NCBI GenBank assembly: GCA_022565595.1
Contig: JAIUML010000007.1
Span: 1 to 64,000 of the forward strand
Length of the DNA: 64,000 nt
Source: Saccharospirillum sp.
GTDB lineage: Bacteria; Pseudomonadota; Gammaproteobacteria; Pseudomonadales; Natronospirillaceae
Reading direction: 5' to 3'
Made by a program: the position numbers and the translations under genes. Positions 52,975-58,560 of this stretch are shown here, one piece after another (the first letter of the stretch is position 1; the number at the start of each line of letters is the position of its first letter). Below the pieces are notes generated by a model. That model ran no database searches and was not told the DNA's origin. It saw only the letters and a list, made by a program, of their open reading frames with translations.

Positions 52975-53667
52975 TCAGGGCAACCAGAGCTCAAAAACAG
53001 CCCCACCGGTTTCGGGATCGTTGGTCAATTGAATAAAGCCTTCGCGATCCCCGTTCTTGTGCAGTCGAGCGGTCTGGTAACAAAAAAACAACCCCAGGCC
53101 AGTACTGCCATTCTGGAAATTGATATCGCCTTGATCACCACCCTCCCCCATGAAGTTCATCATTTTCTCGGGATAGCCCGCGCCGTTATCGGTTATTCGG
53201 ATGGAAAGCCCGCCATCGCGTTCCTCTACCCTGAAAATCAGGTGGTCGGTGGTATAACGAATGCTATTGGTCAGCACATTGGCCAGAATGCCTTCGACCA
53301 GAACCGGGTCCATAAACCAGATCAGGTCCGGATCCTCCTGCTCCATGCTGAGTTTTACGCCCAGAGCTGAGAGGGTGTCGGTATAGCGCGAAGTAGCATC
53401 CCGAATGACATCTTCAACCAACACCTCTTCAAAGTTGGGCATGAAGGTTTCGCTATTAAGCCGGTAGAGACCAAGCATGTGTACCAGGCCATTATTGATG
53501 CGCCCTGCTTCGAGGCGAATTCTGCTCAGTTTCTGAGCAGCTTCGGGTGAGTCCACAGCTATTTCATCGATAACACCCTGTATTTGATCGTCTATTACGC
53601 TCAAGGAATTTTTAACATCGTGGACGGTCGCCGCCATCAAGGTGCTGATATCAAGACTGTTTTTCAT
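52975..53667 (-). CDS. Soluble sensor histidine kinase without a sensor domain
   Basis: Kinase of 230 residues. It begins with a short helical region bearing the phospho-acceptor box VHDVKNSLSVID, then the N box ILANVLTNSIRYT, G1 DNGAGYP, and a G2-type STGLGLFFCYQTARLHKNG lid-region motif. No transmembrane or input domain is present; the reading frame further upstream is noncoding sequence inside its partner gene, overlapping by 17 bases. It should phosphorylate the receiver-TPR protein encoded just before it. With no sensor of its own it may take its signal from that partner or another protein. Confidence 0.87.
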   Translation of the reverse strand: MKNSLDISTLMAATVHDVKNSLSVIDDQIQGVIDEIAVDSPEAAQKLSRIRLEAGRINNGLVHMLGLYRLNSETFMPNFEEVLVEDVIRDATSRYTDTLSALGVKLSMEQEDPDLIWFMDPVLVEGILANVLTNSIRYTTDHLIFRVEERDGGLSIRITDNGAGYPEKMMNFMGEGGDQGDINFQNGSTGLGLFFCYQTARLHKNGDREGFIQLTNDPETGGAVFELWLP

Positions 53668-55303
53668 GAGACATCCTGGTGTGTAGATCGACGATTTTCT
53701 TGCGCAGTGTCTGGTAACGCTCGTACTGATAATGATCTTCAGGAAGGTAGGCGAGTCGATTAACCATATCCAGACAGAAGTCGAGCCGCTCGAGGGTATG
53801 ATCTCCTGAACCCGCCAGCAATAGCGTTGACTGAACCAGATTAAGGACAATCCCGGGGTGCCTGGGAGAGAAACGCTGCGCCTCCTTGAACAGTTCACTG
53901 GCTTGCTTGAATTGCTTTTCCTTGTAACACGCGATGCCCTGGGTATTCAGTTCGTGCGCTTGACGACGAGCCTCGAAAGACACCGGTTCCATTTGCAAGT
54001 TGTTCAAGCGTTCGGTTAGAGCCGGGTTATCCTTATGATGCAACTTGAGTTGATCGACAAATTCGTCCGCAACGGCACTCAGTTTCTTTTCGTAAAGAAT
54101 TTCTGCTATTTCTGTGGCACTTTCTGGCGACAGTTCTTCCAGTTTACCTGCGGCTTCCTCAGCCAGTTTTTTCAGTGCCTTCTGAGCACGGCCAGTGGTG
54201 TCTCTAGGGTCTTCCAGATAGGCCTGATAAGCCTGAGCAAAAAGGTCGGCATCAATGTCTCCGGAGAACGCCTGCTGCAGACGTTTTAAATAGGACTGAG
54301 CATCGCGGTGCAATCGCCTGGCAAGTGCCTCGTCGTCCAATGAAGCCAAATGGTGCCGAGTGGTTCTTAGGACGTTCTTGTAGGCATCCGGCGATTCGTG
54401 CATGGTCCCTTCAGACAGATTGACAATTTCCTTGTAGGCCCTGGTGGCGGCGTAGTAGTCGCCGTTATCCATCGCCAATTCAGCAAAGGCCCGTTGTCTG
54501 GGAATATGACGCGGCGATCGAGCCAACGCCTGAGCCAGGGTATCCTGAGCCTGCTTCGGCTGCTTCAACTGGCGCTGTGCCTGCGCCAGTAAATCATAGG
54601 CATCCAGCAGGTTGGGCTGAGTCAGGACCAGTGTCTTCAATGCACGCTCTGCGGTCTTGTAATCGCCTCGCTGAATCTGAATGCGGCACAGCTCCATCTG
54701 TGCCCAGGGTTGTTCTCGCTTTTCAAGCAGCCCTTGCAGAAAATGCTCAGCCTCGGTTAACTGACCCTGCTGTATCATGGCGGAGACGAACTTGCGCTGC
54801 GCCCAGGCTCTGTATCGCGGTTTTTCCTCCATGACTCGACGTGCTGCCTTGGCTACCTCGGCCCAGTTGTCCTTGTCCAGCGCCTCGTTTATTTCGAACA
54901 GCGACGTCTGGCGGTCAAGCCAGCGGTCCAGGCGTTGTTTCAGGGTATCCATGGCAAAGGGTTTGGCCAGGTAGTCATCGGGCTGGAACTCAATGGCGCC
55001 CATCACCAGATCTCGCGAGGTTTCAGCGGTGATCATCACAAAGATGGTTTCATGAGACAACCAGCCTCTGACGCGCCATTCCTCCAATAGCTGCGAGCCA
55101 TCCTTGCCTTTGCCCAGATTGTAGTCGCACAGCACTACATCAAAGCGCCCGCCTCTGACCTGACGAGTAGCCTCGACACCGTTTGCCGCCTCGGCAACAT
55201 GAGCGACGCCCAGAGAGGTGAGCATACTGCGAATGGATTTGCGTACGTTGGCGAAGTCGTCAACGACCAGAAACCGTTTGTTCAATGAAGCGTTCAGATC
55301 CAC
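53651..55303 (-). CDS. Response regulator with C-terminal TPR repeats
   Basis: Protein of about 550 residues. I take the GTG at 55303 (GGGA upstream) as start; a TTG at 55327 would add eight residues. The receiver domain (about 8-125) has FLVVDDFANVRKSIRSML, phospho-acceptor Asp in VVLCDYNLG, Thr in MITAE and Lys in YLAKPF. The remaining 400 residues are tetratricopeptide-like helix pairs, such as AERALKTLVLTQPNLLDAYDLLAQAQRQLKQPKQAQDTLAQALARSPRH. There is no DNA-binding or enzymatic output, so it should act by protein contacts that change with phosphorylation. It is coupled to the kinase gene downstream. Confidence 0.9.
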   Translation of the reverse strand: MDLNASLNKRFLVVDDFANVRKSIRSMLTSLGVAHVAEAANGVEATRQVRGGRFDVVLCDYNLGKGKDGSQLLEEWRVRGWLSHETIFVMITAETSRDLVMGAIEFQPDDYLAKPFAMDTLKQRLDRWLDRQTSLFEINEALDKDNWAEVAKAARRVMEEKPRYRAWAQRKFVSAMIQQGQLTEAEHFLQGLLEKREQPWAQMELCRIQIQRGDYKTAERALKTLVLTQPNLLDAYDLLAQAQRQLKQPKQAQDTLAQALARSPRHIPRQRAFAELAMDNGDYYAATRAYKEIVNLSEGTMHESPDAYKNVLRTTRHHLASLDDEALARRLHRDAQSYLKRLQQAFSGDIDADLFAQAYQAYLEDPRDTTGRAQKALKKLAEEAAGKLEELSPESATEIAEILYEKKLSAVADEFVDQLKLHHKDNPALTERLNNLQMEPVSFEARRQAHELNTQGIACYKEKQFKQASELFKEAQRFSPRHPGIVLNLVQSTLLLAGSGDHTLERLDFCLDMVNRLAYLPEDHYQYERYQTLRKKIVDLHTRMSHEKQS

Positions 55304-55484
55304 ACTTCCCGTCCCGACCAGTTGCAACAGCTGTAACCATAGCGCTTTAGGGCAAGGCTGTCACACTGAAAACACCGTTTTACCATTGCCCCACTAGCAG
55401 GCACTGACTCTGCTACGGACAACGCCAAACATTCGGACTACAATAAAGGATTAACGCCCTGATCTGAGCGCAGGACACTCCTTG

Positions 55485-56864
55485 ATGATTTTACCTTTTA
55501 GCGAGCCATGTCAGTGGTGGGTACGGAAAGGTGTCCTGCTTCCCGCACTTCTGTGCCTCCTGTTAGCCTCTCCACTTCGTCAAGTCCTGGCTCAGGCCCC
55601 GGACACTCTCAATACCTTTGTTCAAGCCGTGCAATCGCAGAACTGGACAGAAGCCGGGACTCTGGCGGAACCCTTGTTGGATGAATTCGAAGGAACTCCC
55701 AGGTTCGACTACTACTATGCCTTGTTATTGATCGAAACAGGCCGGACTCAGGAGGCCATCTTTACGCTTGAACGGGTTCTTGCCTTTTACCCTCAGCAAC
55801 AACGCGCTCGCCTGGAACTGGCGCGTGCCTATTTTATCAACAACAACCTCCACCGCAGTCGTGTCGAGTTTGATCGGGTACTGTCTGAGGACCCACCGCA
55901 GAACGTGCGCGCCAATATAGAGCAGTTCCTGGCGCGCATTGACGCAGCCGAACACTCGACCCGCACCCAATTCCAGCTCTATGCAGGCCTGGACTTTGGC
56001 TGGAACACCAACATCAATAATGGGTCTACATTGAGTGGGGAACTGGCGCCCAACCTGCTTGGGCTGAACCGCATCAGTGATGCCTCCAGAGCCCAGGAGA
56101 GCTACTTTGGTCGTGTTCGGCTGGGCGGGCAATGGGTACAACCCACCAGCCTGACCAATGCCTGGGTATACAGCCTTCAGGCACAAAGCCTGATATACCC
56201 GGAAGCCGATGACTTCAATCAGAACGATCTTGCCGCCAGGGTCCAGCACCTGCACCGCAGTGATAGAACACGTTATCAGGCCGCACTGAACAGCAGTTAT
56301 AGCTGGATCGATGGGGATCCATGGCAGCTGTCACTGGGGCTCAATGGGCAATGGCAAGCCTCTGTCTGGCAGCGCCTGTGGGCAGGCCCGGCTGCTCAAG
56401 CTCAATGGGGTTGGGCTCAGGGCGGCAACCGCTCTGACACCTTCGGCACGCGCCTGGGCACTGTGCTGACGCTGGAAGAAAACAGCCGTCAACATGAAGG
56501 CCGTCTGGTTTACGCTCAGCAGAGCATTGAGGGCAACGACAACGGCCATCTGGAGTGGGATGGCGTTGGCACACAATACCAATTAGCCTGGCAATGGCCC
56601 AACCGGATCAATACCACCTTCCGCTTTCAGTATGACTGGCGCACCTATAGAGGCGACGACCTCTTGTTTGTGGTCAGCGAAGGCTCACAAGAGCGTAAAC
56701 GCCGTGAAGATCAGTTTCTCAGTGCCGAAACCGCCATCAATTGGCCAGTTCAGCGCTGGCTATCAAGCCGAACCAGCCTAAAATACGAATGGCTCAACAG
56801 TAACATTAACGCCTACAGCCGTGAGCAGTGGGTGTTCAGCCAGTCACTGACGGTGCTATTTTAG
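55485..56864 (+). CDS. SLAM-like TPR plus outer-membrane barrel protein
   Basis: Exported protein of 459 residues from the ATG at 55485. A signal peptide (VLLPALLCLLLASPLRQVLAQA) is followed by TPR-like helices (about 40-155: YYALLLIETGRTQEAIFTLERVLAFYPQQQRARLELARAYFINNNLHRSRVEFDRVL) and a C-terminal barrel of about 300 residues. The first strand, LYAGLDFGWNTNINNGS, and the aromatic end SQSLTVLF are typical. TPR plus a DUF560-type barrel is the layout of surface lipoprotein assembly modulators (SLAM), the type XI secretion translocators. The FecR-domain protein gene follows after 13 bases and is the natural candidate cargo. Assignment to SLAM rests on architecture, not on a search. Confidence 0.72.
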   Translation: MILPFSEPCQWWVRKGVLLPALLCLLLASPLRQVLAQAPDTLNTFVQAVQSQNWTEAGTLAEPLLDEFEGTPRFDYYYALLLIETGRTQEAIFTLERVLAFYPQQQRARLELARAYFINNNLHRSRVEFDRVLSEDPPQNVRANIEQFLARIDAAEHSTRTQFQLYAGLDFGWNTNINNGSTLSGELAPNLLGLNRISDASRAQESYFGRVRLGGQWVQPTSLTNAWVYSLQAQSLIYPEADDFNQNDLAARVQHLHRSDRTRYQAALNSSYSWIDGDPWQLSLGLNGQWQASVWQRLWAGPAAQAQWGWAQGGNRSDTFGTRLGTVLTLEENSRQHEGRLVYAQQSIEGNDNGHLEWDGVGTQYQLAWQWPNRINTTFRFQYDWRTYRGDDLLFVVSEGSQERKRREDQFLSAETAINWPVQRWLSSRTSLKYEWLNSNINAYSREQWVFSQSLTVLF

Positions 56865-56877
56865 GGAGAATCTCGTC

Positions 56878-58560
56878 ATGATACGTGTCTGTCTTTTCGC
56901 GATGAGCCTGATATTGATAAGCACCCAGGCACTATCATCTGTCGGCAAAATCATCATTGCCTCCGGTGACGTCTATGCGCTCGATGCCAACAACACGGCG
57001 CGTGAGTTGCGTCGTCGCTCCGATGTCTTCGAGGGAGACACCCTGGTCACCGGTACCGACGGCAGCCTGCAAATCCGTTTCAACGATAACGCCATTCTGG
57101 CACTTCAGGAAGACTCTCGGCTGGTCATCAGCGCCTATCAGTCTGCAGGCAGCGACCGTGAAGAAAGGGTGCTGATGGACTTGCTCGCTGGTGGCTTCCG
57201 CACCATCACCGGCAGTATCGGTCGCACCGACCGGGACACCTACCAGGTGCGCACCCCTAACGCCAGCATTGGTATTCGCGGTACTCATTTCGAATTGCTG
57301 CAAACCATCGATGCTCTGCTTATAGGCGTTTATGAAGGCAATATCAGAGTGAGCAATGCTTCTGGTCAATTGAATCTGGGCCAGCAGGAAGCCTATCTGT
57401 TCGCCCGTGTCATGCACCAGAGAAGGCCAGAGGGGTTGTTACAGCCACCGCCAGAACTGATGCGACCTCGCACCAGTCGGTTTGCACCACCCTCGGAAGA
57501 GGATGAAGAAGCGACGTGGCTCACCGACAGTGACGCTGACAGCCTGCCGCTGAACCGCTTATTCCAGGCAAGTGACCCCAACCTGCCGCCACAGCAGCCG
57601 CTCGGTGCCGAGCGTGATGAGGTGCCATCCTATTTGCTGGCACTGCTTGAGGAATCTCCCGAAACAGCATTGGTAATGGCCGAGCCCATAATCTCGGGGC
57701 CGGAAAGTGGTGACTATCGATTGAGCCAGGCGCAAGTCGACGAGTTCAGTGACACACCCAGAACCGGCTTTGTGGTGCTGACGGACGAAAACGGTAACCC
57801 CGTCCATTTTGTCTATCTGGCGTCGGGCGACAATGGCCCAGTGTTTGCCAATTTTGAAAGCGAACTGCTCACAGAACTGAACGACGGATACAAGGTGCCG
57901 GACTACGTCTTCAAGGGGCCGGAGTCTGTCTCTCCTGTCGAACTTGCTACCTTCAACCTTGGCGACGAAGTGATTTACTGGGGCCGCTGGGATGCCAGCC
58001 CGGAAGATCAGGCAAAACTGTACAGTGATCCAGACAGCACCGATGTCAGCCGTATGGTGGAATCCAGCTTCTTTTTTGTAGAGGCAACGCCTGCCAGTGA
58101 CCTGCCGCTGAGCGGCAGCCTCGATTTCTCTCTGAATTGCACCAATGATCCCTGTCTGGTGACCAGTCGACCTCTGTATGAAAGCGACGGTATTAATTTC
58201 ATCTATGGTGGGTTGAACATTGACCTGGATAGTGGCGATGGAAGCGGATATCTGGACATAACGACACAAAACCTCAGAGATGCTGCGGCCTCTGATAATT
58301 GGTACCTCTATTTTAGCGGCAGTCTGGTGGGTTCTCAGTTTTTCAGTCTGGTTGAAGGGGATGGTGAGAGCATGGTGTATATTGACGGTGCGGATGCCCA
58401 GTTCCTGTCCGGCAATGTCGATGGGCTGATCGTCCATGACGGCAGCCAGTTCCATGTTACCGGAGGCTTTGGCGTCAGCACGGACGACAACGCCCACAGC
58501 CTGAGCGGCATCTTCCTGATGGAGCAGTCAGGTTCTGATGGCAGCGTCACCGGGCAATAG
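56878..58560 (+). CDS. FecR-domain exported protein, candidate cargo of the SLAM-like translocator
   Basis: Protein of 560 residues with signal peptide AMSLILISTQALS and no lipobox. Residues about 25-175 form a FecR domain: VGKIIIASGDVYALDANNTARELRRRSDVFEGDTLVTGTDGSLQIRFNDNAILALQEDSRLVI and IGIRGTHFELL. A Pro- and acid-rich linker follows (about 175-270). The C-terminal 150 residues are beta-rich with a C421-x4-C426 pair and end VTGGFGVSTDDNAHSLSGIFLMEQ, similar in style to the transferrin-binding-protein-type barrel that SLAM systems recognise. FecR normally signals to a sigma factor, but there is no transmembrane helix or sigma gene here. Its role is likely at the cell surface or outside. 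Confidence 0.75.
   Translation: MIRVCLFAMSLILISTQALSSVGKIIIASGDVYALDANNTARELRRRSDVFEGDTLVTGTDGSLQIRFNDNAILALQEDSRLVISAYQSAGSDREERVLMDLLAGGFRTITGSIGRTDRDTYQVRTPNASIGIRGTHFELLQTIDALLIGVYEGNIRVSNASGQLNLGQQEAYLFARVMHQRRPEGLLQPPPELMRPRTSRFAPPSEEDEEATWLTDSDADSLPLNRLFQASDPNLPPQQPLGAERDEVPSYLLALLEESPETALVMAEPIISGPESGDYRLSQAQVDEFSDTPRTGFVVLTDENGNPVHFVYLASGDNGPVFANFESELLTELNDGYKVPDYVFKGPESVSPVELATFNLGDEVIYWGRWDASPEDQAKLYSDPDSTDVSRMVESSFFFVEATPASDLPLSGSLDFSLNCTNDPCLVTSRPLYESDGINFIYGGLNIDLDSGDGSGYLDITTQNLRDAAASDNWYLYFSGSLVGSQFFSLVEGDGESMVYIDGADAQFLSGNVDGLIVHDGSQFHVTGGFGVSTDDNAHSLSGIFLMEQSGSDGSVTGQ

Follow-up and report, generated by a model that had tools for sequence, protein, structure and literature searches.

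The window, by which we mean the whole stretch of 64,000 nucleotides that was analyzed, is part of a 4.77-Mb draft genome and contains two adjacent genes on the plus strand, referred to below, after their proposed roles, as the exporter and the cargo gene. The exporter gene starts with an ATG at 55485, just after an in-frame TTG at 55482, and its ORF ends at 56864; the product has 459 amino acids. The cargo gene (56878-58560) encodes a protein of 560 amino acids, lies 13 bp downstream of the exporter ORF, and has a GGAGA in front of its ATG. Scans for promoters and terminators at the locus gave weak consensus matches only. The pair is flanked by fabA on its downstream side and by two minus-strand genes upstream. 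The features assigned to the locus are as follows:

52975-53898, minus strand: histidine-kinase ATPase gene, upstream of the pair (Pfam/domain search)
53651-55327, minus strand: protein with a CheY-type receiver and TPRs, divergent neighbor of the pair (Pfam)
55485-55595, plus strand: exporter signal peptide, residues 1 to about 37 (sequence; pLDDT below 50 for residues 1-36)
55599-55961, plus strand: predicted periplasmic TPR domain of the exporter, residues 39-159 (TPR_19, E 6.5e-13; helices in the AlphaFold2 model)
55968-56861, plus strand: predicted 14-strand outer-membrane beta-barrel of the exporter, SlipAM/DUF560 homologue, residues 162-459 (AlphaFold2, hhalign, and fold matches)
56878-56937, plus strand: Sec signal peptide without a lipobox, residues 1-20 of the cargo (sequence; layout shared by homologues)
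56938-57438, plus strand: FecR domain of the cargo, residues 21-187 (PF04773, E 2.6e-15; PupR 6ovk; 5ix9; NF033682)
57439-57720, plus strand: acidic, predicted-disordered linker of the cargo, residues 188-281 (pLDDT below 50 over most of 201-273)
57721-58083, plus strand: handle/pedestal subdomain of the cargo lobe, residues 282-402 (AlphaFold2; inside the range aligned to TbpB/hemophilin)
58099-58533, plus strand: 8-strand lobe barrel of the TbpB_B_D type, residues 408-552 (fold matches to NHBA, TbpB, and hemophilin)

The divergent CheY-TPR gene is kept in most of the same-genus and Reinekea loci (the window, L073, L074, L075, L076, L077, L083, and L086-L089). In the window it stands next to the histidine-kinase ATPase gene, and it may regulate the exporter-cargo unit.

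A putative Slam-like exporter and its FecR-headed partner

The sequence-only reading had proposed that the first protein has the TPR-plus-barrel layout of SLAM, and structure prediction agrees with it. The AlphaFold2 model, built with 49 family members (mean pLDDT 91.6), places TPR helices at residues 39-159 and 14 strands, mostly with a pLDDT above 90, at residues 162-458; the Slam barrel is likewise 14-stranded (PMC7857515). At the level of profiles, the proposed membership was found for part of the family but not for the single protein. On its own, the window exporter did not match SlipAM (PF04575) at E 1, and its score against TPR_Slam (PF24575) was 25.9 bits, below the cut-off of 35.2, whereas 18 of the 49 family members matched SlipAM (E ≤0.01; lowest E 1.9e-10), and homologues from genomes G030, G011, G016, G024, and G037 exceeded the SlipAM cut-off. 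Comparison of the exporter barrel profile with canonical Slam barrels using hhalign gave an alignment of 285 columns with a probability of 99.7% and E 5e-26, as compared to 13% for the reversed decoy. The predicted barrel also resembles the 14-strand folds of CymA and OmpG (Z 20-22). Judged by its sequence, the exporter is a divergent member of the DUF560/SlipAM (Slam, T11SS) family.

The second protein had been described as an exported FecR protein with an acidic linker and a beta-rich C-terminal domain, and all of these parts were recovered. The FecR domain matched PF04773, and the AlphaFold2 model of the cargo (made with 46 homologues; mean pLDDT 82) shows a low-confidence linker at residues 201-273 and a beta-rich C-terminal half. 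The linkers of the family contain on average 14.4 D/E and 2.0 K/R per 60 amino acids. As had been noted for the window, the cargo has no lipobox: by inspection, a stretch of the signal-peptidase-I (SPI) type runs directly into FecR in the window protein and in essentially all homologues listed (72 entries).

The C-terminal domain was predicted to form an 8-strand barrel with a handle. Using VIA-align, residues 281-555 were superposed onto NHBA (Z 12.4), the TbpB C-lobe (Z 12.0), fHbp, and hemophilin 6om5 (Z 10.6), and the terminal GFGV...LSGIFLMEQ stretch, which had been likened to the ends of SLAM cargos, corresponds to the closing two strands of this barrel. Here too, the profile evidence comes from relatives: the window cargo did not match PF01298 (TbpB_B_D), but a homologous cargo of the same genus scored 20.4 bits, and two homologous cargos (G010 and G016) exceeded the cut-off in the lobe region. 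When the lobe profile was compared to solved structures, the haemophore hemophilin (6om5) was the sole match at E 1 or better, with a marginal E of 0.18; single-sequence searches of solved structures with either protein returned nothing useful. Together, the C-terminal half of the cargo is a TbpB/hemophilin-type lobe.

Thus, the pair shares with Slam/T11SS units for TbpB, fHbp, or hemophilin a TPR-plus-14-strand-barrel protein and an adjacent cargo with a handle and a C-terminal 8-strand barrel, and with T11SS subcluster 1B an SPI-type, non-lipidated cargo. It differs from them in the divergence of the exporter, which PF04575 misses on its own, in the FecR head of the cargo, in the occasional fusion of FecR to the exporter, in its occurrence in marine, non-host bacteria, and in the lack of TonB or heme-receptor genes adjoining the pair in the window.

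For the FecR head, VIA-align superposed residues 51-201 onto PupR 6ovk with Z 14.7. The first half of FecR resembles the retention module of RTX adhesins and LapA. Foldseek matched it to the "cell surface anchoring domain" 5ix9 (31% identity over 62 columns, with an rmsd of 0.9 Å), and the same entry, listed as an antifreeze protein, was the sole match of the FecR profile below E 0.01 among solved structures (E 0.0017). This structure belongs to the Marinomonas ice adhesin. The LapA retention-module profile NF033682 was matched by 32 of 46 cargos; the window cargo reached 27.4 bits, which is short of the cut-off (50). The layout is also similar to that of LapA and the Marinomonas adhesin, in which the N-terminal fold (shared over the first half) precedes a flexible stretch and C-terminal domains of the surface type, without a lipid anchor. 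In contrast to these adhesins, the cargo contains a complete FecR domain and is paired with a Slam-family barrel rather than a T1SS; by inspection, its signal peptide is of the Sec type and not one of type 1 secretion. A Peptidase_C93 gene is present elsewhere in the genome, but a LapG-type site ([TAP]AAG) is absent from the window linker and was found in only two linkers of the family, so a LapG-cleaved adhesin is out.

Two families of Leptospira FecR-type surface proteins (Lsa33, LipL45) were matched as well, NF047849 by 44 and NF033165 by 36 of the 46 cargos, although the matches of the window cargo are far below the family cut-offs. Lsa33 and LipL45 likewise carry a FecR-like domain in proteins named surface adhesin or lipoprotein; LipL45, unlike the window cargo, is annotated as a lipoprotein, and neither family is known to us to contain a TbpB-type lobe. 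These precedents for FecR-type domains outside sigma regulation, together with the LapA-like half, mean that the sequence-only reading overstated the case in calling FecR in a secreted cargo a new use of the fold. In the open-licence literature we found no paper that links FecR with Slam, DUF560, T11SS, a retention module, or CHASE2 and adhesins or describes the pair, and on FecR in surface lipoprotein assembly there was just an unrelated siderophore paper. A Slam-family cargo headed by FecR thus appears unreported in this literature.

Conservation and variation of the gene pair

Scanning genomes with the cargo alignment identified 68 loci in Saccharospirillum, Reinekea, Hahella, Bermanella, Thalassolituus, Natronospirillum, Pseudoalteromonas, Psychrosphaera, Colwellia, and other genera, with Saccharospirillum species as the nearest named relatives of the window locus. 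The exporter gene is directly followed by the cargo gene in 63 of them, and the gap between the two ORFs has a median of 8 bp; at least one of the five loci without the pair sits on a short contig. In the window genome, no FecR-domain gene other than the cargo gene was found, and no second exporter homologue was detected at E 0.001. That these two single finds lie next to each other goes far beyond what chance would produce. Among 58 relatives, 21 have both genes, 2 and 2 have one of them, and 33 have neither (Fisher p 1.7e-11, a value that ignores kinship).

To avoid selecting loci by their cargo, we also ran the PF04575 profile against 274 genomes of the class. A FecR gene adjoins all 14 weak-scoring PF04575 loci but none of the 6 canonical Slam loci examined (Gammaproteobacteria). 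In a phylum-wide sample, an adjacent FecR gene (E <1e-10) was present at 12 of 35 non-canonical and 0 of 5 canonical loci; many lineages, probably including the alphaproteobacterial ones, have no adjacent FecR. The iterated profiles were trained on the exporter and cargo family, and therefore their E-values are not independent, whereas the Pfam, fold, and PF04575-census results are independent of these profiles and the hhalign comparison was controlled by a separate decoy. The exporter-cargo pairing is deeply conserved and extends across many marine bacteria.

The segments of the two proteins are conserved to different degrees. In the cargo, pairwise identity averages 45% in FecR, 29% in the lobe barrel, and 15% in the linker; in the exporter, it averages 31% in the TPR domain and 20% in the barrel. 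FecR is thus better conserved than any other part of the two proteins, and the TPR domain is the best conserved part of the exporter. The combination of a conserved FecR and a variable lobe suggests a fixed partner for FecR in the envelope and a lobe that diversifies outside.

In six relatives, the exporter itself carries an N-terminal periplasmic FecR domain (L102:2705-4837, L105:7901-9925, L107:8022-9965, L132:8001-9977, L078:5269-7314, and L140:7668-9908). These domains form one clade apart from the cargo FecR domains (support 0.89), and their origin by repeated recombination from the neighboring cargo was rejected for this reason. One cargo with a long C-terminal part (L201:6954-8999) has a LysM domain before FecR (22.8 bits; cut-off 20.9), which could tie its N terminus to peptidoglycan. 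Cargo genes occur in tandem in some genomes (four copies in G005 and two in G002), and cargos may have two or three lobes (L129, L202, and L092) or be split into a FecR and a lobe gene (L123). Other partners consist of FecR with a Pro/Gly-rich tail (L239, L246, L249, and L218), and some FecR neighbors of Slam-like genes, including ones found through PF04575, have no recognizable lobe.

The surroundings of the pair vary as well. In Alteromonadales, a very large gene (up to >3,000 amino acids) follows within a few bases (about 10 bp) of the pair, as seen in Pseudoalteromonas, Psychrosphaera, Colwellia, and relatives (L125:11201-16978; equivalents in L126-L164). Both of the large downstream genes that were scanned (n=2) contain cadherin and bacterial-Ig (BIg) repeats, and a lipobox pattern is matched by 32 of the 35 proteins encoded at this position. 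The large cadherin/BIg lipoprotein is a possible second, lipidated cargo and could be displayed by the FecR-Slam unit of the same operon. Elsewhere, a 1201-amino-acid ORF with two FecR domains lies just upstream of an exporter-cargo pair (L196:2019-5624), a CHASE2-guanylate cyclase gene lies near the pair in Catenovulum (L162:12207-14444), and a gene for a cNMP-binding protein comes after the pair in Hahella (L113:12196-12975). Two genes beside Slam-like exporters (L233:4960-6192 and L234:6966-8294) encode products that weakly match FecR followed by TPR, and are possible remote relatives of the FecR-Slam arrangement.

Proposed export of the lobe and placement of the FecR domain

We propose that the exporter and cargo would form a two-gene, type-11-secretion-like unit, in which Sec would carry both proteins across the inner membrane. 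The 14-strand barrel would sit in the outer membrane with the TPR domain in the periplasm, and the exporter would recognize the C-terminal TbpB-type lobe of the cargo and move it to the cell surface. The FecR domain would fold in the periplasm, would be unable to pass the narrow barrel, and would stay there, possibly against the TPR domain. The cargo would then remain as a lipid-free surface protein that spans the outer membrane on a flexible acidic tether. We consider it quite likely that the neighboring barrel exports the lobe; the lack of a PF04575 match for the window exporter and its TPR_Slam score below the cut-off count against it. To the whole chain, in which lobe export would be combined with retention by FecR, we give about an even chance.

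Several observations favor a periplasmic FecR: it occupies the mature N terminus, which is the place of a lipid anchor, is fused to exporters, follows LysM in one cargo, and resembles an adhesin module. The acidic disordered tether and the strong conservation of FecR also speak for retention. On the other side, the likeness to the retention module does not reach beyond the first half of FecR, and at the sequence level it is weak. Furthermore, lipidated Slam cargos bring their N termini to the surface and a Cys-mutant TbpB is released (PMC7857515), which shows that N-terminal parts can pass. On balance, the evidence leans toward retention of the cargo through FecR over its release, which the sequence-only reading had considered.

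If released, the cargo would be a soluble T11SS substrate, exported whole like hemophilin or HrpC, with FecR as an external ligand-binding or adhesive head. This would fit its SPI signal without a lipobox, as in the non-lipidated cargos of subcluster 1B (PMC8406197), and the published T11SS pattern of an N-terminal effector with a C-terminal barrel as the export signal. However, published T11SS cargos are variable at the N terminus, while FecR is here the best conserved segment (45% as compared to 29% for the lobe), unlike an exposed effector; the periplasmic side of FecR in the exporter fusions and the LysM of one cargo are further points against release, which we regard as rather unlikely.

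FecR could instead serve in docking or as a chaperone and deliver the cargo by binding the exporter TPR domain (or the FecR domain fused to the exporter), with its final place being secondary. The presence of FecR in all 46 aligned cargos, which were selected by FecR, and in the lobe-less partners found through PF04575 is consistent with such a role, as are the conservation of the TPR domain (31% as compared to 20% for the barrel) and the six exporter fusions. Yet canonical Slam cargos lack FecR and are exported all the same, and we judge the docking role unlikely.

Export of a polysaccharide through a barrel of the BcsC/PgaA/PelB type, with the FecR protein as a periplasmic accessory, is brought to mind by Foldseek, which ranked BcsC first for the exporter and also listed PelB, and by the assignment of PgaA homologues to PF04575 (PMC8406197), but it is very improbable given the 14 strands as in Slam, the barrel-wide profile homology to Slams, the lack of synthase genes adjoining the pair, and the TbpB-type lobe of the partner. 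Envelope signaling, with the FecR protein as a sensor or anti-sigma regulator, can be practically discounted: the cargo shares the FecR fold of PupR (6ovk, Z 14.7), but its signal peptide runs straight into FecR at residue 21, it has no STN subdomain, transmembrane helix, or cytoplasmic anti-sigma part, a surface-type lobe follows FecR, and this only FecR gene of the genome has no sigma-factor gene among its neighboring ORFs.

Returning to retention, we put forward, tentatively and as less probable than the chain itself, that FecR is the lipid-free anchor of a widespread second branch of T11SS, in which the lobe would be exported and the FecR head trapped, following the LapA principle with an unrelated exporter. 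In a 2025 survey, cargo-like genes rarely adjoined the marine Slam cluster studied (PMC12282271). Outside host-associated bacteria, the cargo is known for few Slam-family exporters. The FecR-headed proteins, which a simple rule of adjacency suffices to find, are candidate cargos for a large branch in the Gammaproteobacteria. In these proteins, FecR may take the place of the usual lipid anchor. If FecR indeed acts as a retention plug, T11SS would be joined to the LapA adhesins by a common anchoring principle, and many orphan FecR genes, which are not accompanied by a sigma factor, would gain a function.
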